Shown: positions 14,276 through 46,629 of the stretch, one piece after another
Layout: the number at the start of each line of letters is the position of its first letter
Numbering within the stretch: position 1 is the first letter of the stretch
Assembly (NCBI RefSeq): GCF_014873945.1
Contig: NZ_JADBEC010000002.1
Location: 1,674,001-1,738,000 of the forward strand
Length of the DNA: 64,000 bases
Direction: 5' to 3'
Source of the DNA: Rhizobium viscosum
GTDB taxonomy: Bacteria > Pseudomonadota > Alphaproteobacteria > Rhizobiales > Rhizobiaceae
Program-made: the position numbers and the translations under genes
The notes under the pieces: generated by a model
Databases searched by the model: none
What the model was told of the DNA's origin: nothing
Seen by the model: the letters and a program-made list of their open reading frames with translations, nothing else

Positions 14276-15927
14276 GGCTCTGACTCATTTTTGATGCAGT
14301 CGTAACGATGCTGCGTTGCTGGTTTCCACAAAGGAATCAGCATGATGAGCACGAAGCTCTGCGCTTCTGATTTGGTCCCGGCTGGCTTCATTGCTGAACG
14401 CATTACGCGCGTCGGCGATGAGACCTGCATCCTGCTTTCCCGAACCAACGCAACGGCGGCTTGTCCAGCGTGCGGACGAATGTCTCGAACGGTCCGAAGT
14501 CGCTATTGCCGCCAGGTCGCGGACCTTCCCCTATCAGGAAGGCGCGTCAGGCTTCTCGTGCGCACTCGCAGGTTCGCTTGTGATGCCGTGCTCTGTGGGA
14601 GACAGATATTCGCCGAGCGGTTCGGCGACGTACTGCCGCCATATGCTAGACGAACTGGACGCCTCGAGCATGTTGTTCATCACTTGGCACTCGCGCTTGG
14701 CGGACGCCCGGCCGCCCGTTTTGCCCAACGTCTGATGCTACCCGTCAGCAACGACACTCTGCTGCGCGTCATCCGCAGGCAAGGCCTTCCGTCGTCAGCC
14801 CCACCCGCGGTGATTGGCATCGATGATTGGGCCTGGCGTCGCAATCATCGCTACGGCACGATCGTGTGTGATCTGGAACGGCGGAGGCCGGTCAGTCTGC
14901 TGCCAGACCGCGAGCCAGCGACTGCGGAGGCTTGGCTGCGGCAGAACCCCCAAATCCAAATCGTTGCCCGCGACCGTGGCGGCGCTTACGGGCTGGCGGC
15001 CGCAAGGGCATTGCCTGATGCCGTGCAGGTCGCTGATCGATGGCACTTGATGGAGAACGCCAGCCGTGCATTCCTGGAGGCGGTCCGCAAATCGATGCGG
15101 CAAATCCGCAAGACGCTCGGCGCAACGCGCGTCGATCCGAAGCTGCTGACTGCGGCCGAACGCCTTCAATACGAAGGCTATCTCAGACGGGAACAGGCCA
15201 ACGTGGCCATCATGGCGCTATCCAAGGACGGCATGACGATCAAGGAAATCGTGCGCCGCACTGGTCATAGCCGCGGCTTGGTCCGCCAGGTGCTTAGAGG
15301 GCAACGAAACGATGTCTTTCGGTCCCGAGAAAGTTCGCTGGAAATGTATCTGGAATGGCTCGACGCACAATGGGCTGCCGGCAGCCGGAACGGCACTGAA
15401 CTATGGCGGCGTATGAGAACACAGGGCTTTCGCGGTTCGCGCCGAGTCGTGAGTGAATGGGCCACACGGCGGAAGCGGGCCGACAAGGCGGACGCGGATA
15501 CATTGACCCGCACTCCCTCCGCCAGGACGATTGCTCGCCTCTTAACAACCAATAGAGACAACCTGACGAAATCCGAAACTCTCACCATCGCCGCGATCGA
15601 AAGCGGCGTCCCGCTACTCATTGCGGCTCGCGATATCATTACCGACTTCCATGTGATGGTTCGGCGCAAAATGGAAAGCCAGCTCGTGCCGTGGATCGAC
15701 CGCGCCCGAGACAGTCTAGTCGCCTCCTTTGGCAACGGCGTAGTGAAAGACATTAAGGCGGTTCGAGCGGCGATCGTCTCACCATGGTCCAATGGGCAGA
15801 CCGAAGGGCAGATCACCAAGCTCAAGCTGGTGAAACGCCAAATGTACGGACGCGGAAAGCTCGATCTTCTTCAAGCCCGGCTGATCGGTGCGACATGAAA
15901 GTAATGCACCAAATCTGCGTCAGAGCC
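14276..15927 (+). mobile_element. Complete ISL3-family insertion sequence (about 1.65 kb)
   Basis: One transposase gene is bounded by imperfect inverted repeats. The left end reads GGCTCTGACTCATTTTTGATG from 14276. The right end, read on the other strand from 15927, is GGCTCTGACGCAGATTTGGTG. They agree at 17 of 21 positions, and GGCTCT is the usual ISL3 terminus. The similarity continues outside these points: TCGGCGTCCAATTTT at 14261-14275 pairs with the inverse of 15928-15942. The element borders might therefore lie further out. I see no clear 8-base target duplication. The element ends 22 bases past the stop of the GT-C gene and leaves that gene whole. Confidence 0.85.
14342..15898 (+). CDS. 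ISL3-family transposase
   Basis: A 518-residue transposase of full family length. The N-terminal zinc-binding motif is CPACGRMSRTVRSRYCRQVA near residue 38. The catalytic core includes IGIDDWAWRRNHRYGTIVCD (first Asp) and VQVADRWHLMENAS. The C-terminus has SPWSNGQTEGQITKLKLVKR with the catalytic Glu and ends RQMYGRGKLDLLQARL. All are standard for ISL3/IS1165-like enzymes. The frame is uninterrupted, so it is probably functional. A second ATG three bases downstream is an equally good start. Confidence 0.93.
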   Translation: MMSTKLCASDLVPAGFIAERITRVGDETCILLSRTNATAACPACGRMSRTVRSRYCRQVADLPLSGRRVRLLVRTRRFACDAVLCGRQIFAERFGDVLPPYARRTGRLEHVVHHLALALGGRPAARFAQRLMLPVSNDTLLRVIRRQGLPSSAPPAVIGIDDWAWRRNHRYGTIVCDLERRRPVSLLPDREPATAEAWLRQNPQIQIVARDRGGAYGLAAARALPDAVQVADRWHLMENASRAFLEAVRKSMRQIRKTLGATRVDPKLLTAAERLQYEGYLRREQANVAIMALSKDGMTIKEIVRRTGHSRGLVRQVLRGQRNDVFRSRESSLEMYLEWLDAQWAAGSRNGTELWRRMRTQGFRGSRRVVSEWATRRKRADKADADTLTRTPSARTIARLLTTNRDNLTKSETLTIAAIESGVPLLIAARDIITDFHVMVRRKMESQLVPWIDRARDSLVASFGNGVVKDIKAVRAAIVSPWSNGQTEGQITKLKLVKRQMYGRGKLDLLQARLIGAT

Positions 15928-36923: not shown

Positions 36924-37979
36924 TCAGGAAAGACCGTACCAGGCGCCGCGGCCAGCACCGTGCAGGATGAGGTGCCCTTGATCCACAAGTGCCTTGAGAT
37001 GATCCTTGATGGTGTGACGGCTTGCATCGGTGATCCGGGCTGCCTCCGCGACCGTAATCCGCCCGTGCTCGCGCGCCAACTCGAGCAATGTGATGGATAA
37101 TTCCGGCATGTCGGCAAGGATAATACGCTCGCGCTCCATTTTCTTCTCAAGCCGGGTCTTCTGCCGATGCAGGGCTCTCAAAAAGAACTCGATCCAGGGA
37201 TTCCAGTCGGGCTCCGCGCTGCGGATCGTTCCCTGCGTGCGCCGAAGCGAGAGGTAATAGCTCTCCTTGCTTCGCTCGATGATGCTTTCGAGCGAGCTGT
37301 AGGGGACGTAAGCGTAGCCGGCCCGCAGAAGCAGCAAGGTGGTCAGAATACGCGATAGGCGGCCATTGCCATCCTGGAATGGATGGATTTCGAGGAAGAC
37401 GACAACGAAGATCGCGACGACCAAAAGTGGATGGAGCCGTTTTTCTCGCCCTTGCTCATCCAGCCAGGCGATCAGTTCTTGCATTCGACGCGGCGTATCG
37501 AACGGCGATGCCGTTTCGAAAACAATGCCGAGGCTGTCGCCCTGTTCGTTAAACGCTTCCACGTTGTTGGAGAGGGTTTTGTAGGCGCCGCGATGCCGCT
37601 CGTCCTTTGTCGAATGCGCAAGAAGGTCGCGGTGGAGTTGACGGATATGATTCTCGGTGAACGAAATAGCTTCGTAAGCACTGAAGATGGTCTCCATCAC
37701 CTCCGCATAGCCGGCAACCTCTTGCTCGTCGCGTGTCGTAAATGACCCCAGGCGAATGTTTACCAGCAGCTTTTCGACCTCTCGGTCGGTGAGGCGTGCG
37801 CCTTCAATACGTGTGGAGGAACCGACGCTTTCGATCGTGGCGACACGCCGGAGGCTGGACAGCCGCTCAGGCGCAATCCGGCCGATCGCACGCCAAGCAC
37901 CTTTGAATTCGTCGATTTCGGCGATCAGCGACAGGATTTCGGGCGTGATCCGGACGGTCGCCGTGTTTAGATATTCCAT
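36924..37979 (-). CDS. Fic/DOC-family protein with C-terminal winged helix
   Basis: A 351-residue Fic protein. The catalytic motif HPFQDGNGRLSR (residues 199-210) is complete, so AMP transfer to a target hydroxyl is expected. An N-terminal inhibitory helix motif, STRIEG (residues 55-60), fits the S/T-x-x-x-E-G consensus of class II Fic proteins, which hold themselves inactive. The C-terminal 60 residues (ITVAEAARITDASRHTIKDH) form a winged-helix domain that could bind DNA. I start at the ATG 37979. Just upstream lie two direct repeats that may be its own operator. No separate antitoxin gene is adjacent. Confidence 0.88.
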   Translation of the reverse strand: MEYLNTATVRITPEILSLIAEIDEFKGAWRAIGRIAPERLSSLRRVATIESVGSSTRIEGARLTDREVEKLLVNIRLGSFTTRDEQEVAGYAEVMETIFSAYEAISFTENHIRQLHRDLLAHSTKDERHRGAYKTLSNNVEAFNEQGDSLGIVFETASPFDTPRRMQELIAWLDEQGREKRLHPLLVVAIFVVVFLEIHPFQDGNGRLSRILTTLLLLRAGYAYVPYSSLESIIERSKESYYLSLRRTQGTIRSAEPDWNPWIEFFLRALHRQKTRLEKKMERERIILADMPELSITLLELAREHGRITVAEAARITDASRHTIKDHLKALVDQGHLILHGAGRGAWYGLS

Positions 37980-37981
37980 TC

Positions 37982-38053
37982 TTCCATCCATTCCCATCCA
38001 ATTCCTGAGACACTTTCATGCACTATTCATCCATCCATTTCCATCCAATTTCC
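37982..38053. promoter_or_regulatory. Direct-repeat operator candidate at the fic start
   Basis: Two near-identical direct repeats, TCCATCCATTCCCATCCAAT within 37982-38005 and TCCATCCATTTCCATCCAAT within 38029-38053, lie 48 bases apart. That is about four and a half helical turns. The proximal copy is two bases from the fic ATG and overlaps its ribosome site. Each copy also contains an internal CCATCCA repetition. They are well placed to bind the winged-helix domain of Fic or another repressor. Confidence 0.55.
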
Positions 38054-38277
38054 ACGAAATAGTTTGTCAGATCTGTTCGTTGATCGCGAGCACGATGACT
38101 GGCCAGTCTCCACTCGAGCGGATTCAGACCTTGCAGCGAGAAGAGAAGATGTACGAGGACGACAGCTATCAAAAATGCCAGCCGGTCCTCCTATGTCATT
38201 GGCAAGGCGCTCGCGGCCGAAAACGAGTACTGGCTTTCCAAGCCTCTGACGTCTCTAAGAGCTCGGATGCGTTGCGC

Positions 38278-38595
38278 TTCTTCTCGATTGCCCATGAGCG
38301 CTATCTGCTGGCGGTGGCCAAAGAGAGCCCGCTGTCATTGAAGAGCGAGATCGATCTTGAGGATCTGAGGGACGAGAAGATCATCTCGTTCTCCCGTCAG
38401 AACCTCTCCTATAGCGAGCGGTATTTTGCGGAAAAGTTCGAGGAGCACGATCTGACGGACAATGTCACCTATAGCTGCGACGATACCTTCTCGCTGGTGT
38501 CGCTGGTCTCAGCCGGCCTTGGCATCGGCTTCGTGCCGGAATGGACGCAGGATCTGCCGAACCGCGGCTTCGAACTGAAGAAGGTGAGGGGAGAC
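38278..38595 (+). pseudogene. LysR-type regulator remnant (effector-binding domain)
   Basis: An open frame on the plus strand carries part of a LysR substrate-binding domain: IAHERYLLAVAKESPL, then EDLRDEKIISFSRQNLSYSE, DDTFSLVSLVSAGLGIGFVP and the following WTQDLPNRGFELKKV. No winged-helix DNA-binding domain is found upstream. The reading degenerates after 38595, although a shifted LAWCQE near 38675 recalls the end of such domains. It lies tail to tail with the aldehyde dehydrogenase gene and is probably the wreck of an old regulator of it. Confidence 0.65.
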
Positions 38596-38726
38596 AACAG
38601 ACAGGTACCTCGTCAAGGGCAATCTCCGGTCCGTCGCTTGATGAGGGTGTCGATTCGGGTGCAAATTCAGTTGGCGTGGTGTCAAGAGATTCAGGGACGC
38701 GGGCTAACGTCGCAAAAACATCCCAA

Positions 38727-40103
38727 TCACTGCTTGAAGACGATCATTTTCTCCGCCGTCATCTCACGGGCGGTATAGGGAATGCCACCGACCCCATAGC
38801 CGGATGCCCTCCTTCCGGCGAACGGCATCCAATCGGTGCGGAAGGCGCTGTGATCATTGACCATGACCGCCGAAGCGTCGAGACGTTCGGCTGCTTCGAG
38901 CGCGACGGCGAGATCACGCGTGAAGATACTGCTTTGAAATGCGACAGGCAGTGAATTTGCCTCGCGGATGGCATCATTGAGATCGGTAAAACCGAAAATG
39001 CAGGTGACTGGGCCAAAGACCTCCTCGCGCGAGACCTTCGATGTCCTGGGCGGATCGACGAGAATTGCCGGCGCCAGCGTGGTGTCGCTGAGGCGTCCGC
39101 CTCCGATCAGGCGGGCACCCCCTGACGCGGCTTCCTCAAGCCAGGTGGCGACCCGTTCGGCCTCGGCTGGTGCGATCAGGGGACCGACCTCGGTCTCGGC
39201 AAGGCGGGGGTCACCGACGCGCAGGCGCCCAACGCGCTCGGCGAACCGTTCGACGAAGGCATCCTTTAGCGCTTCGTGGACGTAGATCCGCTGGACCGAG
39301 ACACAGACCTGACCCGCATGATAGTAGCCGCCCTTCGCGAGAGGTTCGATGACCGTGTCGATATCGGCGCTGCGGTCGATGATCACCGGCGCCACGCCGC
39401 CGTGCTCGAGAGCGCAGCGAGTTCCAGGCGCCAAATTTGCGCGCAGATGCCAGCCGACCGCGGCTGAGCCGATGAAGCTCAGGAAGGCCACTCTCGGATC
39501 GCTCGCGAAGGCGCCCGACAGATCGCGGCTCTCGGGGAGCAGGCTCTGAACCCAGCCTTCCGGCATGCCGGCTTCATGGACGAGCTTTATAAGTTCCAGA
39601 CAGGAAAGCGGTGTCGCCGCCGCGGGCTTGACGATCACCGGGCAGCCTGTGGCGATCGCCGGCGCAACCTGATGCACGATGAGGTTCAGGGGGTGGTTGA
39701 ACGCCGAGATTGCGGCAACTACGCCGATGGGCTCCAGGATCGTCCAGGCGCGCCGCCCCTCGCTGGCTGGAGTCAGCCCCATCGGTATCTCGGCGCCGCC
39801 GCGGGTGCGAAGCAGTTCGGCGGCGTTGCGTATCCCGTCGATGGCGCGGTCGGTTTCAACGAGCGCATCGGTGTAGGGCTTGCCGCCTTCGCGTGCGATG
39901 CGCATCGCGAAAGCCTCGCGCTGCTGCACGACCAGATCCGCAAGCCGATGCAGCACAGCCATACGCTGGTGCGGCTTCAGCCAGCCGCTCCGATCTTCAA
40001 AGCGCTCGCGAGCGACGGTCAGCTTGCGTTCGAGCGCTGCAGCATCATCCGTCGGCAAATCGGCGATATGTTCGCGATCATAGGCTTGCACGACCTCAAG
40101 CAT
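38727..40103 (-). CDS. NAD(P)-dependent aldehyde dehydrogenase
   Basis: A 458-residue aldehyde dehydrogenase that oxidises an aldehyde to the acid. Key residues are present: oxyanion Asn136 in SAFNHPLN, cofactor Lys159 in VIVKPAAA, general base Glu233 in ALEHGG and nucleophile Cys267 in GQVCVSVQR. The sequence resembles the phosphonoacetaldehyde/lactaldehyde and glyceraldehyde-3-phosphate (non-phosphorylating) branch. It is last in the operon 42685-38727, 18 bases after the monooxygenase gene, and probably takes the product of the upstream alcohol dehydrogenase. A near-copy of its last 50 codons occurs at 46416-46565. Confidence 0.9.
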   Translation of the reverse strand: MLEVVQAYDREHIADLPTDDAAALERKLTVARERFEDRSGWLKPHQRMAVLHRLADLVVQQREAFAMRIAREGGKPYTDALVETDRAIDGIRNAAELLRTRGGAEIPMGLTPASEGRRAWTILEPIGVVAAISAFNHPLNLIVHQVAPAIATGCPVIVKPAAATPLSCLELIKLVHEAGMPEGWVQSLLPESRDLSGAFASDPRVAFLSFIGSAAVGWHLRANLAPGTRCALEHGGVAPVIIDRSADIDTVIEPLAKGGYYHAGQVCVSVQRIYVHEALKDAFVERFAERVGRLRVGDPRLAETEVGPLIAPAEAERVATWLEEAASGGARLIGGGRLSDTTLAPAILVDPPRTSKVSREEVFGPVTCIFGFTDLNDAIREANSLPVAFQSSIFTRDLAVALEAAERLDASAVMVNDHSAFRTDWMPFAGRRASGYGVGGIPYTAREMTAEKMIVFKQ

Positions 40104-40121
40104 GGGACCCTCCAGACCCGG

Positions 40122-40424
40122 TTACTCTTCCAGCGCGACAGGTTCGAGAATGCGCGCAGAGCGATCCGCCAACGCGGGAACTCTGGCGAGATAGGCCTGG
40201 TAGTGCGGCGTTCGGCGGTGCGCTTCGGTCGCCTCGGCGTCACGATAAAGCTCGTCGAGCACGTAGCACTCAGGCATTTCGGTATCTCGCCAGACATCCC
40301 AGCGCAGATTGCCCGGTTCAGCCCGACAATGCGGCGCCATGTCGAGCAGCAACCCGCGCAGTTCTTCGGCTTTGCCGGGATGGGCGGTCAGGCTGGCCGT
40401 GATTTTCACCAATGACTGTGACAT
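40122..40424 (-). CDS. Antibiotic biosynthesis monooxygenase (putative quinol monooxygenase)
   Basis: A 100-residue ABM-fold protein (start MSQSLVKITASLTAHPGKAE) with the family pattern EELRGLLLDMAPHCRAEPGN, then WDVWRDTE and FxxxE-like YVLDELYRDAEATEAHRRTP and HYQAYL. YgiN-type members oxidise or reduce quinols, while others remove reactive aldehydes or act in haem handling. It lies 28 bases after the DJ-1-like gene in a redox operon. I choose the ATG at 40424; an upstream in-frame start would overlap that gene. Confidence 0.8.
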   Translation of the reverse strand: MSQSLVKITASLTAHPGKAEELRGLLLDMAPHCRAEPGNLRWDVWRDTEMPECYVLDELYRDAEATEAHRRTPHYQAYLARVPALADRSARILEPVALEE

Positions 40425-40452
40425 GGTGGTTCTCCCGTTTAACGTTGCCGCT

Positions 40453-41136
40453 TCAGGCTGGAGCGGCAACGTCCCGCAGGGCCGCGAGCAGTTTCTTCCC
40501 AAGTTCAGCTGCCGAGGCGGGATTCTGGCCGGTGATCAGGCGCCCGTCGGCAACGACATGCGGCTGCCAGTTGGCAACCGACGAATATTCCGCGCCCTCG
40601 GCTCTCAGCGCGTCCTCAAGCTCGTAGGGCACGTCCTCACGGGCATAGTCGTATTCTTCCTTTTTCGAGAAGGATGTGATCCTTTTGCCGTGCACGAACG
40701 GTGTGCCGTCTCCGAGGTCGACGCCAAGCAGAGCGCAGGGTCCGTGGCAAACGGCGGTCACGAGCTTGCCGGTCGTCCAGGCGCGCACGATTGCCCGCTG
40801 GACCTCCGCGTTGCGCTGTATGTCGACCATAGGTCCGAGGCCGCCGGGCACGAGAATGGCATCGTAGTCAGCGGCGTCAACCTCGCAGAGTTTGCGGCTG
40901 CGATTGAGCCGGCGAAAAGCCTTGCTTTCGAAGAACGCCTTCTGGGCAGGGTCGTTGTCATCATAGGCGTCGTAAGGTGTCCATCCGCCGGCGGGTGAAG
41001 CGAACTCCACCGCGATGCCGGCGGCGTCAAGCACCTCGAACGGATGCGCGATCTCCGCGAAGAAGAAGCCGGTCTTTCGGCTTTTCGGACCGATCACGGC
41101 GGCGTTCGTGACGATAAACAGGACATGCTGCGTCAT
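40453..41136 (-). CDS. DJ-1/PfpI-family protein (Hsp31-like)
   Basis: A 227-residue member of the class I glutamine amidotransferase-like superfamily. The catalytic Cys130-His131 are in VTAVCHGPCALLG, and the acidic partner lies in GFFFAEIAHPFEVL (Glu28). Length and the insert with DDNDPAQKAFFESKAF resemble Hsp31/YhbO-like glyoxalase III and protein or nucleotide deglycases. In this operon it could convert dicarbonyls such as methylglyoxal. It lies 49 bases after the alcohol dehydrogenase. A protease role is less likely. Confidence 0.85.
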   Translation of the reverse strand: MTQHVLFIVTNAAVIGPKSRKTGFFFAEIAHPFEVLDAAGIAVEFASPAGGWTPYDAYDDNDPAQKAFFESKAFRRLNRSRKLCEVDAADYDAILVPGGLGPMVDIQRNAEVQRAIVRAWTTGKLVTAVCHGPCALLGVDLGDGTPFVHGKRITSFSKKEEYDYAREDVPYELEDALRAEGAEYSSVANWQPHVVADGRLITGQNPASAAELGKKLLAALRDVAAPA

Positions 41137-41185
41137 GGTTGTCTCCTAGATATCGAGTTAGATACTATTCTCGCGTCCAATGCCG

Positions 41186-42241
41186 TCAGAAGGTGACGAC
41201 TGCACGCCCGATGATTTTATTATCCCGCAAGAGGTCGATATATTCATTGATATCGTTGAACGAGATCGTCTTGATCGTGTGCTGGATCTTGCCTTCTGCA
41301 GCGAGTGCCATGACCTCAATGAGATCGGCGTTGTTTCCCCAGAACGAGCCGTGAAAAGTCTGCTCGCCGTGGACGCGTGGGAACAGAGGAACGTTGATCC
41401 GGTCGCCAATGAAGCCGACATCGGCGTAATGCCCGCTGATCGCTAGGCGTGAGAAGGCGAGCTGCATCATCTCGGTCGCACCGGCGCAGTCGATGATCGC
41501 GTCGAACTTGTCCTGTCCGGTCGCCTTTTTAAGCTCCTTTCCGACCTCCTCGGAGGACTTGCCTTCGATCGCGATGATGTGGTCGGCACCATATTTCTTC
41601 GCGACCTGGAGTTTCTCCTCGTTTCTGGCGACGGCGACGACGGGACCGCCTGCGCCCAGCAGCTTGGCATATTGGACGGCGTAGGCGCCAAGGCCACCGA
41701 TGCCGAAGACACCGATCACCCGGTCCGGGCCGAGCCCGCCGGCATCGCGAATCTTTTTGAGCCCGCGATAGGGGGTCAGACCGGCGTCGGTCAGTGGTGC
41801 GAGCTGCTCGAACTTGAGGTGCTTGGCGACCTTGATCGCATAACGGGCCGGTACCGGGATATACTCGGCAAAGCCGCCATAGGTGCCAAAGCCTGGCCAG
41901 CGGACATTGGGGCAGATGTGCGTGTTGCCGACCTGGCAATGCTTGCAAACGCCATCACCCCAGCCGGGTGACACCACGACATGGTCACCTTCCTGCAGTC
42001 CTGCAGCCTTGGCCACGACACCGCCGACCTTCTCGACCGTGCCCGTTATCTCGTGACCAGGAATGACGGGCGGCGGAATATCGCCATAGCCCTGGAAGAA
42101 GCCATCGATCAGCAGCACGTCCGAGCGGCACATGCCGCAGGCGGCGACTTTCACGAGAACCTCGTCGGGTTGAATGTCCGGAACCTTGATGTCCTCGAGG
42201 ACGAGGGGCTTCTTGTATTCAAGAATGCGCGCAGCTCTCAT
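41186..42241 (-). CDS. Zinc-dependent alcohol dehydrogenase (MDR family)
   Basis: A 351-residue medium-chain dehydrogenase that interconverts alcohols and aldehydes with NAD(P). The catalytic zinc site is Cys38 (CGMCRSD), His63-Glu64 (PGHEITG) and a later ligand. The structural zinc loop reads GWGDGVCKHCQVGNTHIC, with three Cys and an Asp where the first Cys is usual. The dinucleotide motif is FGIGGLGAYAVQYA. The ATG 42241 has AAGGAGG at good distance; GTG one codon earlier is the alternative. It starts 12 bases after the HbpS-like gene. Confidence 0.9.
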   Translation of the reverse strand: MRAARILEYKKPLVLEDIKVPDIQPDEVLVKVAACGMCRSDVLLIDGFFQGYGDIPPPVIPGHEITGTVEKVGGVVAKAAGLQEGDHVVVSPGWGDGVCKHCQVGNTHICPNVRWPGFGTYGGFAEYIPVPARYAIKVAKHLKFEQLAPLTDAGLTPYRGLKKIRDAGGLGPDRVIGVFGIGGLGAYAVQYAKLLGAGGPVVAVARNEEKLQVAKKYGADHIIAIEGKSSEEVGKELKKATGQDKFDAIIDCAGATEMMQLAFSRLAISGHYADVGFIGDRINVPLFPRVHGEQTFHGSFWGNNADLIEVMALAAEGKIQHTIKTISFNDINEYIDLLRDNKIIGRAVVTF

Positions 42242-42253
42242 CACTGGCCTCCT

Positions 42254-42685
42254 TCAGGCTTTTGGATTTGTTGCCATCACGGCGGCCGCCGCCTCGGCGA
42301 CCGCAATGTCCTGTTCGACCGAACCGGCGCTGGTGCCGACGGCACCGACGATCTGATTGTCGATGGTGACGGGCAGACCTCCGCCAAAGATCACGACGTG
42401 GCCGGCATTGCTCTGCTCAATCCCGAACAGCGGCGCTCCAGGCTGTGCCAGTTCAGCGAGATATTCGGTCGTCTTGTTGAACATCCGTGCGGTCTTCGCC
42501 TTGCCGATGGCGAGATCGATGCTTCCTTCGAGAGCGCCATCCTGACGCGCGAACGCGATCAACGCGCCGCCGACGTCGACCACAGCGATGTTGTAGGGAA
42601 TGCCGAGACTGGCCGCCTTTGCTTCTGCCGCGTCAAGCATCCGCTTGGCGTCCGACAATGTCAGTGTGCTCAGCGCGCGGGGCAT
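42254..42685 (-). CDS. GlcG/HbpS-family protein
   Basis: A 143-residue protein of the GlcG/HbpS family: LTLSDAKRMLDAAEAKAASL, VVDVGGALIAFARQDGA and FGGGLPVTIDNQIVGAVGTS followed by EQDIAVAEAA are all family signatures. HbpS binds haem and senses redox stress. Many GlcG homologues lie beside alcohol and aldehyde oxidation genes with unproved roles. It lacks a signal peptide when started at ATG 42685, so it is cytosolic. It is first in the five-gene operon. Confidence 0.85.
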   Translation of the reverse strand: MPRALSTLTLSDAKRMLDAAEAKAASLGIPYNIAVVDVGGALIAFARQDGALEGSIDLAIGKAKTARMFNKTTEYLAELAQPGAPLFGIEQSNAGHVVIFGGGLPVTIDNQIVGAVGTSAGSVEQDIAVAEAAAAVMATNPKA

Positions 42686-42999
42686 GGCGGGCTCCTCGAT
42701 CACTCCGGGTCCAGGGCGCGAGCAGCCATGGCCAACAACGACCACCCGAAGCTCGAACCTGCTGAATAAGGCAAACCTGTGCGAGCGCTTGGGATCTCGA
42801 TCACCCGGTCAGCCCGCTACCTTGATATCACCGCAGCACCGGAATGGCTGGTTAAAAGATGTGAATCTGCTGGTATAAGGCTATCGGGACAGGACCAACC
42901 CTGAAATCCGTTCGATGGCCGCCGTCGTCCAGCCGCGCATCTGCGAGGCACCGCGCTCTCAAAGTGCAGCCGCGAAAGGGGGAAATGGAAGAGGCAGAT
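42686..42999. promoter_or_regulatory. Divergent promoter region of the carbonyl operon and its regulator
   Basis: About 310 bases between the HbpS-like gene (leftward) and the STAND regulator (rightward). Both promoters must lie here. AT-richer sequence (TGGTTAAAAGATG near 42848-42860) stands out from the GC-rich flanks. I cannot point to a convincing palindrome. The regulator's own winged helix probably binds within it. Confidence 0.45.
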
Positions 43000-45831
43000 A
43001 TGATCGATGCCACGACATATTGCTTCGGCAACTGCCGTTTCACGCCAGCTCGCCAGTCGCTGCTCTGCGGCGATATCCCGATACGTCTTGGATCGCGCGC
43101 AATGGATCTGCTTCATGCGCTCGTACGCCAGCCTGGGCAGGTCGTCAAAAAAAGCGAACTTTTTGAAGCGGCGTGGCCCAATCTGTTCGTCGACGAAAGC
43201 AATCTCAAGGTCAACATCGCCGCTCTGCGCCGTGCGCTGCAGACAAGCGGCGTCGACGTTCCCTGCATAGCCACCGTCCCGGGCCGGGGGTATCGCTTCG
43301 TTGCACCGCTGACGGTGCTGGGTCCACGGGAGGCAACGCTTCCCGCGTCGATCAAGGAGATTGACGGGGCGCTGCCGCCGTCAAAGCCGCTCGTCGGGCG
43401 CGCTGATGCGTTGGCGGCGATTGTCGAGGCGTTGCAGCAGACCCGATTGCTCACGGTGGTCGGACCTGCCGGCGTCGGCAAGACAAGCATCGCTATCGCA
43501 GCCGCAAGAGCGATCGCCAACGGAGAGGACCAAGCCGTGTGCTTCGTTGACCTGGCCGCGATCGAGAAAGGGCAGTTCGTCGCCCTGGCCGTCAGTCGTG
43601 CGCTCGGCATCGTAGGCAACCCGATCGATGACGTGGAAGGTCTCGTCGACGCGCTGCGAGGCAAGAACCAGCTTCTCGTTCTTGACAATTGCGAGCATGT
43701 CCTGGCGGCCGTCGCCGGCATAGCAGATCAACTGAACCATGCGTTGCACGGATTGAATATCATCGTGACAAGCCGCGAGCCGTTAAGATGCAGGTTCGAA
43801 ACTGTCCATCGGCTTCCGCCGCTTCAGTGTCCGCCCGCAGATGCGATTCTCGATGCCGGGTCGGCAATGGCCTTTTCGGCGATCGAGTTGCTGGTTCGGC
43901 GCGCGGAGGCACATGGCTATCGATTGGAGGATGCGGATGTCCCGGCGCTCGCGAGTTTGGGCCGGCGTCTCGACGGTATTGCGCTGGCGATCGAACTGGC
44001 GGCTCCGCAACTCAAGGAATCCGGTCCCGCGGGGCTGCTGCAAATGCTTGAACGTGACTTCGAAGCGCTGGCATCACGCGGAGATGGCATGTCCCGACAC
44101 AAGACGCTGACGGCGACGCTCAGCTGGAGTTACCGGCTGTTTTCGGAGAGCGAGGCGCGGCTGCTCCGTCATCTTTCCGTTTTCGGCGGCACCTTTGCGC
44201 TCGATGATGCCATCGACGCCTTCGGATATCTGGCGGATGAGCAGGATGTCACCGCATGGCTGGAAGCCCTCGCGGCCAAATCCATGGTGTCGGTCAACTA
44301 CACGGGGAGGCGTCGCCGATACCGGTTGCTCGACAGTACACGAGCTTTCGCCAACGAACGGCTGGTTGCGCAGGGCGAGCAACAGGCCGCGATGATCGCG
44401 TATGGCCGCTTCATTCTCGCGTTATTCGAAAGAGCAGAGGAGGAATGGACGTGGCGACCGCGCGAAGACTGGATGGCGCTCTATGGCGGCTGGAGCGCGG
44501 ACCTCCGCCGCATGATCGATTGGGCCTATCGCGTGGAAGGACAGGCCGAACTTGCGGTGCGGCTGACCGTTGCTGCCTTGCCGTTCTGGGTAGAATTCTC
44601 GACGATGGCGGAAAGCGGGTCACGCGTCGAAAAGGCCCTGTCGGCGCTGGACGACCTGTCCGGTGATCACCTCCTGCTCCGTATGAAGCTGGTCGCCGCA
44701 CATGGCTGGAATCTGTGTTATCGCTATCCTTTCGGTGACGAACTCGAGGCAACTTGGAAGAGGGGTTTCAAGCTCGCTTTAGAAGCTGGAAGCGTGGAAC
44801 ATTGTCTTCGCACCAAGATCGGCCTGGCAATGGTCCAGACCGCCATGGGCTTTCATCAAAGGGCGTTTGAGACGATTGCCGATCTCCGCCGCTTCATGGA
44901 GTCGATAGACGATTATTCCGCGGCTCCCAATGCCGATCGAGAGTTGTTTACCTGCGAATTCTATCAAGGGAACATCAAATCCGGGCATGCGGGTCTCGAG
45001 CGCTTGGCGCGCGAGCACGCGACTTTCGGCAATCGTGGTCAGACCTCGAGGTTCCAGATCGACAGGTTCGTCAATTTCCGAAATCATCTTTCGTTGTCCA
45101 CTTGGGTGGTCGGCCAGCATCGGCGTGCACTTGAGATTGCGGAGGAAGCACTGAACGCCGCGCTGACGTTGAACCACGACTTGTCTTGCGCGCATTCGCT
45201 TGCAGTCGCGGCCACGCCCATAGCCTTGCTATGTGGGCGAATTGATTTAGCGCAGGAGCGAGCATTGATGCTGGCCGAGCGCCTGAAGACCCGCCAGATC
45301 GATACCTGGCCGCCGTTTGCCCGCTTTCATCAGGCAGCGATCGACGCTGCGCGCGGAGACGTGGAGGCGATCCAGCGGTTGAGGGAAGCAATCGCCGCCA
45401 TTCGCGACTGCAATTTTCTGATCCATTTACCTCTGCGGTATGTGATGCTCGCTCATGCGGCGCTTTCGCATGATAAAGTCGTGGTTGCTCGCAGGAGCAT
45501 CGATGAGGGCATGAACTACAGTCGGCAGCGTGGAGACCGATGGTGCGACGCCGAGTTTCTGCATCTTCGCGGCTTGGTGTGCTGGCGGGATGGAGATGAA
45601 AACGGCGCGATGCGACACCTTCAGGATGCGATAGACCTGGGTCGTGAGAGTGGCGCTCTCGGTTTTGCACTGCGCGCCGCAACGAGCCGCGTCAAGCTTG
45701 CGAACGAGATCGGCAACCCCGCACGGCCCCTGGCAGAGCTGAAGGAGATCAGCGATCGCTGCGACAGCAGCGGCAGCACGGATATTGCCGCCGCGCATGA
45801 TGCGCTGATGTCAGGTCATGCTCAAACGTGA
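43000..45831 (+). CDS. Winged-helix STAND ATPase transcriptional regulator
   Basis: A 943-residue regulator in three parts. Residues about 1-100 are an OmpR/PhoB-like winged helix (IRLGSRAMDLLHALVRQPGQ, ending TVPGRGYRFVAPL). Residues about 130-420 are an NB-ARC-like STAND NTPase with P-loop GPAGVGKTS (155-163), Walker B LLVLDNCEH and the IIVTSREPL sensor motif. The remaining 500 residues are helical TPR-like repeats that would sense a ligand. Such proteins are inactive with ADP and oligomerise with ATP and inducer. It is divergent from the carbonyl operon and is the obvious candidate activator. ATG 42985 is an alternative start. Confidence 0.88.
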   Translation: MIDATTYCFGNCRFTPARQSLLCGDIPIRLGSRAMDLLHALVRQPGQVVKKSELFEAAWPNLFVDESNLKVNIAALRRALQTSGVDVPCIATVPGRGYRFVAPLTVLGPREATLPASIKEIDGALPPSKPLVGRADALAAIVEALQQTRLLTVVGPAGVGKTSIAIAAARAIANGEDQAVCFVDLAAIEKGQFVALAVSRALGIVGNPIDDVEGLVDALRGKNQLLVLDNCEHVLAAVAGIADQLNHALHGLNIIVTSREPLRCRFETVHRLPPLQCPPADAILDAGSAMAFSAIELLVRRAEAHGYRLEDADVPALASLGRRLDGIALAIELAAPQLKESGPAGLLQMLERDFEALASRGDGMSRHKTLTATLSWSYRLFSESEARLLRHLSVFGGTFALDDAIDAFGYLADEQDVTAWLEALAAKSMVSVNYTGRRRRYRLLDSTRAFANERLVAQGEQQAAMIAYGRFILALFERAEEEWTWRPREDWMALYGGWSADLRRMIDWAYRVEGQAELAVRLTVAALPFWVEFSTMAESGSRVEKALSALDDLSGDHLLLRMKLVAAHGWNLCYRYPFGDELEATWKRGFKLALEAGSVEHCLRTKIGLAMVQTAMGFHQRAFETIADLRRFMESIDDYSAAPNADRELFTCEFYQGNIKSGHAGLERLAREHATFGNRGQTSRFQIDRFVNFRNHLSLSTWVVGQHRRALEIAEEALNAALTLNHDLSCAHSLAVAATPIALLCGRIDLAQERALMLAERLKTRQIDTWPPFARFHQAAIDAARGDVEAIQRLREAIAAIRDCNFLIHLPLRYVMLAHAALSHDKVVVARRSIDEGMNYSRQRGDRWCDAEFLHLRGLVCWRDGDENGAMRHLQDAIDLGRESGALGFALRAATSRVKLANEIGNPARPLAELKEISDRCDSSGSTDIAAAHDALMSGHAQT

Positions 45832-45853
45832 ATAGTCCAGCCAATGGAAATGT

Positions 45854-46020
45854 TCAACTTTCTGCCGCCGACGCCATCGATACTGTCGAAGCCGACCGGA
45901 CGATCAAGACCAGAGCCGGCACCACGGAAATAAACCCGACGACGACGATTGCGAGCTGGAGTGCGCTGTCGGCTCCCTGCATTCGTCCGGTGATACCTGG
46001 CACGAGGGTTGGCCCCGATC
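45854..46020 (-). pseudogene. 3' remnant of an MFS transporter gene
   Basis: On the minus strand a frame ending at 45854 reads SGPTLVPGITGRMQGADSAL, then LAIVVVGFISVVPALVLIVR and a short tail. GPT-L-x-x-x-x-T then a loop with an acidic residue and a final hydrophobic helix is the usual last transmembrane region of MFS permeases. Nothing upstream continues the family, so only about 55 codons survive. The call rests on pattern alone. Confidence 0.4.
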
Positions 46021-46415
46021 GCCAAGCTCGCGGCAGATTTGCGAAATTGGGGCAACTCCGGCGAGCGGTTATCGCAATCTGTAATCCGAGTCGTGCCGCC
46101 TCCCAATGCGGCTCTCGCCTTCACTTTGGACTGCACGTCATGTCACTATCGGTGCTGACGCAAACCTCACGCTCAAGTCCCCGGGCGTTTTTCTAGCCCA
46201 ATTTACCTTGTTTAACCACCCAAGTGCCGCCTGCGATGATAAATAAGCTTCACGCCACGATGGCGAGAGCGCAGCTCAGGCATACCGGCGGCAATATCTA
46301 CGTCAGAAAGACCAGGATCGAAGGCGTGACTATTCCGTTGGTCAGGTCGAGGACGCCTGCGTGCTTCGAGACGATCGAAGTTTCGATCGAGAAAGGCGAG
46401 CAAGACCATGCCACG
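46021..46415. other. Non-coding, probably decayed sequence
   Basis: About 400 bases between the transporter remnant and the aldehyde dehydrogenase fragment. No frame shows a recognisable domain. The position between two gene fragments suggests a deleted operon. Confidence 0.4.
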
Positions 46416-46565
46416 CTGGACGCTTCAGCTGTGATGGTGAACGATCACAGTGCGTTGCGTACCGACTGGATGCCGTTCGCCGGCCGGCGCGCGTCGGGCT
46501 ACGGCGGCGGCATCCCCTATACGGCCGCTGAGATGAGCGCGGAAAAGATGGTCGTCTATCAAGAG
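46416..46565 (+). pseudogene. C-terminal fragment of an aldehyde dehydrogenase gene
   Basis: Fifty codons encode LDASAVMVNDHSALRTDWMP, then FAGRRASGYG and GIPYTAAEMSAEKMVVYQ. This is almost residue-for-residue the end of the intact aldehyde dehydrogenase at 38727-40103 (LDASAVMVNDHSAFRTDWMP at the same place), with one residue less in the GYGxGGIP loop. The preceding sequence is not aldehyde dehydrogenase. The fragment is in front of the LysR gene and in the same direction. Confidence 0.85.
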
Positions 46566-46629
46566 ATAGGGCCGGTCGGTCGACCACGATATTCGATATC
46601 GGCAGCCCAGTGACCGAAGGTGCCAGGAC

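Follow-up and report, generated by a model that had tools for sequence, protein, structure and literature searches.

A conserved pairing of a STAND-type regulator with a putatively mobile carbonyl/alcohol operon in Rhizobium viscosum

The operon and its divergent regulator

We analysed a 64,000-nucleotide stretch of the Rhizobium viscosum genome (contig NZ_JADBEC010000002.1, positions 1,674,001 to 1,738,000 of the forward strand; hereafter the window), in which a putative five-gene operon, encoding an HbpS/GlcG protein (HbpS), a zinc alcohol dehydrogenase (ADH), a DJ-1/PfpI protein (DJ-1), an ABM-domain protein and an aldehyde dehydrogenase (ALDH), lies opposite the gene of a large regulator with a STAND-type ATPase (REG) (Table 1). 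The positions and strands of the six open reading frames and the gaps of 12, 49, 28 and 18 bases between the operon genes, as given in a first-pass annotation of this DNA, agree with the coordinates, and each of the five protein-family names proposed there finds its match in Pfam. An NCBIfam scan of the six proteins returned no model at its cut-off among the matches listed, which for ALDH were the best 25 of 45.

Table 1. Features of the regulator-operon unit and its immediate surroundings in the window.
Feature	Position	Strand	Length	Basis
HbpS/GlcG protein (DUF336), first operon gene	42254..42685	-	143 aa	Pfam HbpS-like 1.5e-38
Zinc alcohol dehydrogenase (ADH)	41186..42241	-	351 aa	Pfam ADH_zinc_N 5e-28, ADH_N 4.6e-26
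DJ-1/PfpI protein, Hsp31/glyoxalase III-like	40453..41136	-	227 aa	Pfam DJ-1_PfpI 5.4e-18
ABM-domain protein ("quinol monooxygenase" type)	40122..40424	-	100 aa	Pfam ABM 2.9e-18
Aldehyde dehydrogenase family protein (ALDH), last operon gene	38727..40103	-	458 aa	Pfam Aldedh 2.5e-121
REG: OmpR-type winged helix-turn-helix (27-104), STAND-type ATPase (about 125-450), helical/TPR-like C-terminal half	43000..45831	+	943 aa	Pfam
Predicted REG operator, direct repeat GGTTAA / TGTGAA, 10-bp period	42850..42866	+		Sequence pattern
Predicted extended -10 of the operon promoter (TGATATCA), 19 nt from the operator	42823..42830	-		TGnTAW spacing
Predicted extended -10 of the REG promoter (TGGTATAAG), hexamer 8 bp from the repeat	42871..42879	+		9 loci
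Remnant of an MFS gene, Spinster-type	45857..46018	-	54 C-terminal codons	Aligned with residues 390-443 in the R. leguminosarum gene at 68.5% identity
Second operator-like site, one mismatch, with -10-like TGATAA at +19	46201..46217	-		Pattern search
Short open reading frame ending in an ALDH C-terminal remnant	46236..46613	+		46416-46557 (up to 46563) matches ALDH 3' ends

The top solved relatives of ADH are NAD-dependent alcohol dehydrogenases, and those nearest to ALDH include ALDH21 and lactaldehyde dehydrogenase; C267 and E233 of ALDH, which we take to be its catalytic residues, stand at the expected motif positions. The two enzymes together suggest the conversion of an alcohol or aldehyde. 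Among the solved relatives of DJ-1 are yeast Hsp31-type proteins and glyoxalase III (E 2.5e-23), and C130 and E28, presumably the catalytic cysteine and glutamate, are present, so that by relatedness and by this residue pair the protein would belong with the glyoxalase III (Hsp31/DJ-1) enzymes. The ABM protein is nearest to LsrG and PA3566. For HbpS, the best solved relative is the formaldehyde sensor EfgA (E 4.2e-29), whose K57, S114 and D121 align with K62, S119 and D126 of HbpS, an assumed 20-residue tag offset fitting all three. According to the EfgA report, these formaldehyde-binding residues are largely conserved across the family and so are not diagnostic within DUF336 (PMC8153426). Taken together, the likenesses of ADH and ALDH, DJ-1, HbpS and the ABM protein favour a part in responding to a reactive carbonyl or to the corresponding alcohol, a catabolic role being nearly as likely.

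The N-terminal domain of REG is an OmpR-type winged helix-turn-helix (wHTH; Pfam Trans_reg_C 1.8e-16, residues 27-100), that is, a fused DNA-binding effector domain, and its ATPase region carries the Walker A-type motif GPAGVGKT at 155 and the Walker B-type motif LLVLDN at 225, as expected of a NOD. The first-pass description of REG as a winged-helix NB-ARC/TPR regulator holds for the wHTH; the AAA/nSTAND matches all fall under the curated cut-offs, as does the weak TPR_MalT match (29.5 bits against a cut-off of 45), and the NB-ARC model matches one REG homologue and not REG itself. No BTA-type domain, the mark of the SARP family, follows the wHTH in Pfam and NCBIfam scans at E<=0.001. An anti-phage defence role for REG was rejected, a single weak PADLOC match (mads_8, 2.9e-4) being all that pointed to it.

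Conservation of the pair across genomes

The regulator and the operon are one conserved unit, and their pairing, which had been put forward from the window, is real. Relatives of REG at 82-91% identity occur in Rhizobium, Nitrospirillum, Azospirillum and unnamed Rhizobiales records. With both copies in the R. viscosum genome counted, and duplicates removed beforehand (L143=L012, L144=L018, L146=L017, L147=L014, L149=L013), there are 12 distinct close loci with REG at least 82% identical, and in 10 of them HbpS and ADH stand opposite REG. All five genes are found at six of these 10, HbpS-ADH-ALDH at three, and HbpS-ADH with an apparently frame-broken DJ-1 gene at one (L012). Among 14 loci with REG at 43-51% identity, the five-gene operon is divergent from REG in three (51% REG; hereafter the 51% clade) and lies three genes away in four (44% REG; the 44% clade), and another, L154, has HbpS-ADH with an ABM gene further off.

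The same association emerges when the search starts from ADH, which gave 27 matches in 24 of 148 genomes of the genus. A REG-family gene, 34-100% identical to REG, lies within seven genes of ADH at all 19 genus loci with ADH of at least 84% identity; the REG identities there are 86-100% (seven loci), 51% (three), 44-46% (five) and 34-35% (four). At the eight loci with ADH of 68-74% identity, four have a REG-family gene nearby, three have none and one is cut by a contig end.

A predicted operator and two predicted promoters

The spacer between HbpS and REG contains a direct repeat, GGTTAAAAnnGGTRAA, which we predict to be the REG operator and which the 51% and 44% clades also carry ahead of HbpS. 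This 7.07-Mb genome contains three copies of GGTTAAAANNNGTRAAT when one mismatch is allowed, all of them within the two cassette regions described below. Eighteen perfect occurrences of GGTTAAAANNGGTRAA were found in 18 genus genomes with a close REG (18 of the 19 carriers, G000, the present genome, having been searched with a different pattern); 15 lie within 3 kb of a close REG, and one further site has an ABM gene on one side and, on the other, a 31%-identical REG with an ALDH gene after it. Counted by genome, a perfect site stands beside a REG-family gene in 15 of these 18. The pattern is absent from 18 genus genomes without a close REG, taken as the first listed of 129 non-carriers minus G543 and G548, both of which carry ADH, and the reversed pattern occurs in no genome of either group (36 in all).

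On the HbpS side, all 17 pattern-matched loci have a TGnTAW element at precisely +19 nt, across three REG clades with differing spacers, leaving 22 bp between the repeat and the -10 hexamer; the HbpS-side element of L154 misfits the pattern in that orientation and stands outside this count. The 17 loci share descent, and therefore the independent evidence is the agreement of the three clades. On the REG side, a TGGTATAAG-like -10 with its hexamer 8 bp from the repeat was found at 9 loci, all with REG at least 85% identical; it is missing in L015, L016, the 51% clade and the 44% clade. A sigma-70 consensus scan of 38000-46500 remained at chance level, with 2 found and 2.2 expected. When an operator weight matrix was applied to 72 remote loci, eight strong matches were obtained, all intergenic; in four cases a REG homologue begins no more than about 200 bp downstream. 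Against the reversed control, the counts were 50 vs 36 at score 11, 22 vs 12 at score 13 and 8 vs 2 at score 17, such that at low cut-offs the matrix hardly beats the control in these loci.

Remote relatives of the regulator

The first-pass annotation considered a STAND regulator unusual for such an operon, a view that does not survive the wider comparison: homologues at 28-37% identity are common (154 plasmid records) and are also found beside small oxidoreductase- or hydrolase-type genes. Oxidoreductase, hydrolase, ABM, DJ-1 or similar small-enzyme genes are nearby in 14 of 15 annotated remote plasmid regions, and an ABC transporter set in the other, these 15 being hand-picked from the 154 records, mostly annotated ones, with several sharing a cluster type and no matched control. 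At 40 loci, ABM genes account for 8 of 239 genes within three genes of REG vs 1 of 210 further away, and three of the 11 ABM genes of this genome (10 above cut-off) are in REG clusters. Remote REGs adjoin small-enzyme genes, and therefore a STAND regulator beside such genes is a habit of the family; regulators of the REG type are common in soil alphaproteobacteria. Text searches of the literature gave no publication on the REG-operon pair among the matches listed, which is weak evidence of absence given that most subscription papers lie outside their coverage.

Two related arrangements were seen. At L193-L196, a sister operon of DJ1, ABM, a 241-252-aa gene and ADH (84-85%; in L193 followed by an MFS gene) is divergent from a REG of 34-35% identity, with neither HbpS nor the operator pattern. 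In the genome of R. viscosum itself, a paralogous cluster (L045, G000:C2:746000-763000) contains a pair of REG homologues that point away from each other. ABM (71%) and DJ-1 (30%) genes flank the pair at one end, and HbpS (71%), a 246-aa gene and a distant ALDH flank it at the opposite end.

Extent, second copy and probable mobility of the cassette

A search with REG retrieved a second copy, 94% identical, elsewhere in the same genome, and the DNA of the two cassette copies aligns over 38715-46017 (against G000:C1, L042:3556-10860) at 95.9%. The second copy is a complete unit, including a full MFS gene; in R. leguminosarum ATCC 14479, likewise, a matching block is followed by an MFS transporter gene convergent with REG. 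The intact gene has an MFS_1 match in Pfam, and its nearest solved relatives are Spinster-type carriers. Across the 12 close units, the MFS gene is near full length in seven, a remnant in two (the window unit and L012); L013 and L018 show none, and in L148 its place lies outside the contig. Because it is complete in the other copy and in relatives, the end of the DNA match at 46017 marks the break point of the window MFS gene rather than the edge of the cassette.

Beyond that point, 46201-46613 is the relic of a second unit, with its operator-like site and a stretch, 46416-46557, that is 74-79% identical at the DNA level to the ALDH 3' ends of six relatives or copies. The two genomic copies of the cassette differ unevenly: per 250 bp, they show 0-4 mismatches over 42965-44714 and 21-38 over 44715-45964, where they are about 8-15% different, with up to 14% near 38965-39464. 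This patchy divergence rules out a recent simple duplication as the origin of both and resembles what partial gene conversion or recombination would leave.

Comparing up to 5 kb of flanking DNA among eight units, we found matches longer than 350 bases only between L017 and L018, the remaining ones being few, 95-320 bases long and 73-87% identical. The flanks thus differ among units, and therefore the block would move as a unit; we regard the regulator-operon unit as a probable horizontally moving cassette. Within the left flank of the window unit, 320 bases are 75% identical to left-flank DNA of the R. leguminosarum unit. An open reading frame at 37756-38778, with a LysR substrate-binding domain and no helix-turn-helix match, is probably a truncated gene; 36924-37997 encodes a SoFic-like Fic-family protein (PADLOC SoFic 9.8e-49), and many plasmids of rhizobia and agrobacteria carry similar DNA. 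An ISL3-type transposase gene lies at 14342-15898.

A constant output and a changing putative sensor half

Identity to the window unit is distributed unequally along REG and its neighbours. In the 44% clade, the wHTH is 68-69% identical, the STAND region 48-51% and the C-terminal half 35-36%, while the enzymes are far more constant (ADH 95-96%, HbpS 87-90%, DJ-1 88-89%, ABM 82%, ALDH 86-88%); in the 51% clade, the values are 77-79% for the wHTH, 42% for the C-terminal half and 92% for ADH. The recognition stretch of the wHTH, NLKVNI, is invariant in the listed REGs of at least 43% identity. These figures point either to rapid evolution of the sensor half or to exchange among regulators of equal DNA specificity. 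HbpS was also considered as a direct protein partner of the REG sensor, and we did not adopt this: HbpS remains constant while the sensor half diverges, which argues against a tight co-evolving contact.

A broader scheme, which we put forward only as a long shot, is that mobile proteobacterial chemical-response cassettes keep a DNA-binding domain, an operator and enzymes constant and have a fast-changing STAND sensor re-tuned or exchanged for new inducers, in the way that the sensors of immune-type STAND receptors change. If the mechanism proposed below is right, the natural series of sensor halves, 35-91% identical to the window REG over one output, could serve to locate the ligand-reading surface.

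Proposed mechanism and alternatives

On balance, we think it probable that REG is an AfsR/MalT-like STAND activator which, through its OmpR-type wHTH, drives a horizontally moving carbonyl/alcohol cassette. In the mechanism that we infer, REG would be closed at rest, and an inducing signal read by the C-terminal helical-repeat half, together with ATP, would open and multimerise it. With its wHTHs on the tandem GGTKAA-type repeats at 42850-42866, the multimer would bring RNA polymerase to the promoter of HbpS-ADH-DJ1-ABM-ALDH, the operator being centred near -43 if the -10 is correctly placed. In the close clade, REG would also activate its own promoter from a site centred near -28, in a SARP-like manner. 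The operon would convert a reactive alcohol or aldehyde through ADH and ALDH, HbpS would bind a small aldehyde or a cofactor, DJ-1 and the ABM protein would act as accessory scavengers, and in intact copies the MFS carrier would move substrate or product.

Several observations weigh against this proposal. The C-terminal half of REG is modelled as helices in an AlphaFold model whose mean pLDDT (predicted local distance difference test) of 47.7 is too poor for use. No REG is near two of the 18 perfect sites, and one of these two falls within a gene; three close-REG genomes (G658, G624, G652) have no perfect site beside REG, and the operator pattern is missing at the four loci with ADH of 84-85% and REG of 34-35%. 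As to the pairing, L148 has REG with neither the operon nor a match to the operator pattern, and three loci with ADH of 71-74% carry HbpS-ADH without a REG gene. Regulators homologous to REG but set among unrelated genes, one part of what the first-pass annotation said would refute its proposal, do occur, both among many homologues of at most 37% identity and at 6 of the 14 loci with REG of 43-51%, where HbpS-ADH is missing from the stretch seen; most of the close group is not affected.

A further observation of this kind, the loss of DJ-1 and ABM from three close units (L017, L018, L145) in which HbpS, ADH and ALDH remain, is what would be expected if, under the same regulator, the operon were a catabolic alcohol-to-acid pathway, with ADH acting before ALDH, the MFS protein importing the substrate, and DJ-1 and ABM cleaning up side products. 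This alternative, which we hold quite possible though short of probable, gains from the intact MFS gene in 7 of the 12 close units and from the alpha/beta hydrolases of related clusters, which could release an alcohol. It accounts less well for the recurrence of DJ-1 and ABM genes beside the operon and of ABM genes beside remote REGs, for a formaldehyde sensor as the solved structure nearest to HbpS, and for the absence of any ring-cleavage or CoA-activation gene from the window unit in Pfam.

It is unlikely, in our view, that REG is a repressor, or that the conserved site belongs to another regulator to which REG is merely linked. The binding of REG at the site is a prediction, and the close-clade site is flanked by two -10-like elements in opposite orientation, a position from which a bound protein could also block; in the 44% clade, moreover, REG has no site upstream, the sites being found in the spacer between HbpS and MFS and ahead of a hydrolase-ABM pair, a placement that weighs against the activator proposal as well. 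Such a view is at odds with the absence of perfect sites from the 18 genomes without a close REG and with the constancy of the wHTH recognition stretch in close REGs. L013, which has little DNA on the operon side, cuts both ways: its REG stands without the operon, and yet it retains a one-base-longer form of the site. Both MalT and AfsR, which are characterised STAND factors, work as activators in the reports on them. Finally, a chance neighbourhood of a generic detoxification operon and an unrelated regulator, of which the varied neighbours of remote REG homologues might remind one, is very improbable, being contradicted by co-conservation in contexts as different as Rhizobium and Nitrospirillum/Azospirillum and by the shared site.

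For REG as an activator of the cassette, the predicted operator, the promoter layout and the target operon make the switch directly testable.

Comparison with known systems

MalT controls the maltose system of Escherichia coli and binds DNA through a C-terminal domain of the LuxR type. It is described as a STAND activator with a TPR-type sensor (PMC6468293), a combination that REG, with its weak TPR_MalT match, may share, whereas the DNA-binding domain of REG is N-terminal and OmpR-type. Closer in this respect is AfsR, the "large" SARP of Streptomyces (OmpR-type wHTH, BTA, NOD, TPR), with which REG shares an N-terminal OmpR-type wHTH, a STAND/NOD region and a putatively TPR-like C-terminus. 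SARP sites are reported to be direct repeats 11 or 22 bp apart with the 3' repeat 8 bp from the -10, and the direct-repeat operator of AfsR has its proximal repeat at this distance (PMC10936776). On the REG side, the hexamer likewise stands 8 bp from the repeat (9 loci), while the repeat period is 10 rather than 11 and the distance on the HbpS side is 22 bp. REG further differs from AfsR in having no BTA match, in standing beside a carbonyl/alcohol cassette instead of antibiotic genes and in being proteobacterial. If the proposed mechanism is true, the AfsR/MalT scheme would be extended to a carbonyl or alcohol response.

On the side of the enzymes, one parallel is arqI-gloA2 of Pseudomonas aeruginosa, a glyoxal-induced detoxification operon with an ABM-domain gene; according to its report, the ABM protein itself conferred no appreciable glyoxal resistance and the transcription factor of the operon is called unidentified (PMC12274486). 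The ABM gene is common to both systems, and a GloA2-type glyoxalase is not part of the window unit. EfgA of Methylorubrum, also a DUF336 protein, resembles HbpS in the three formaldehyde-binding residues.

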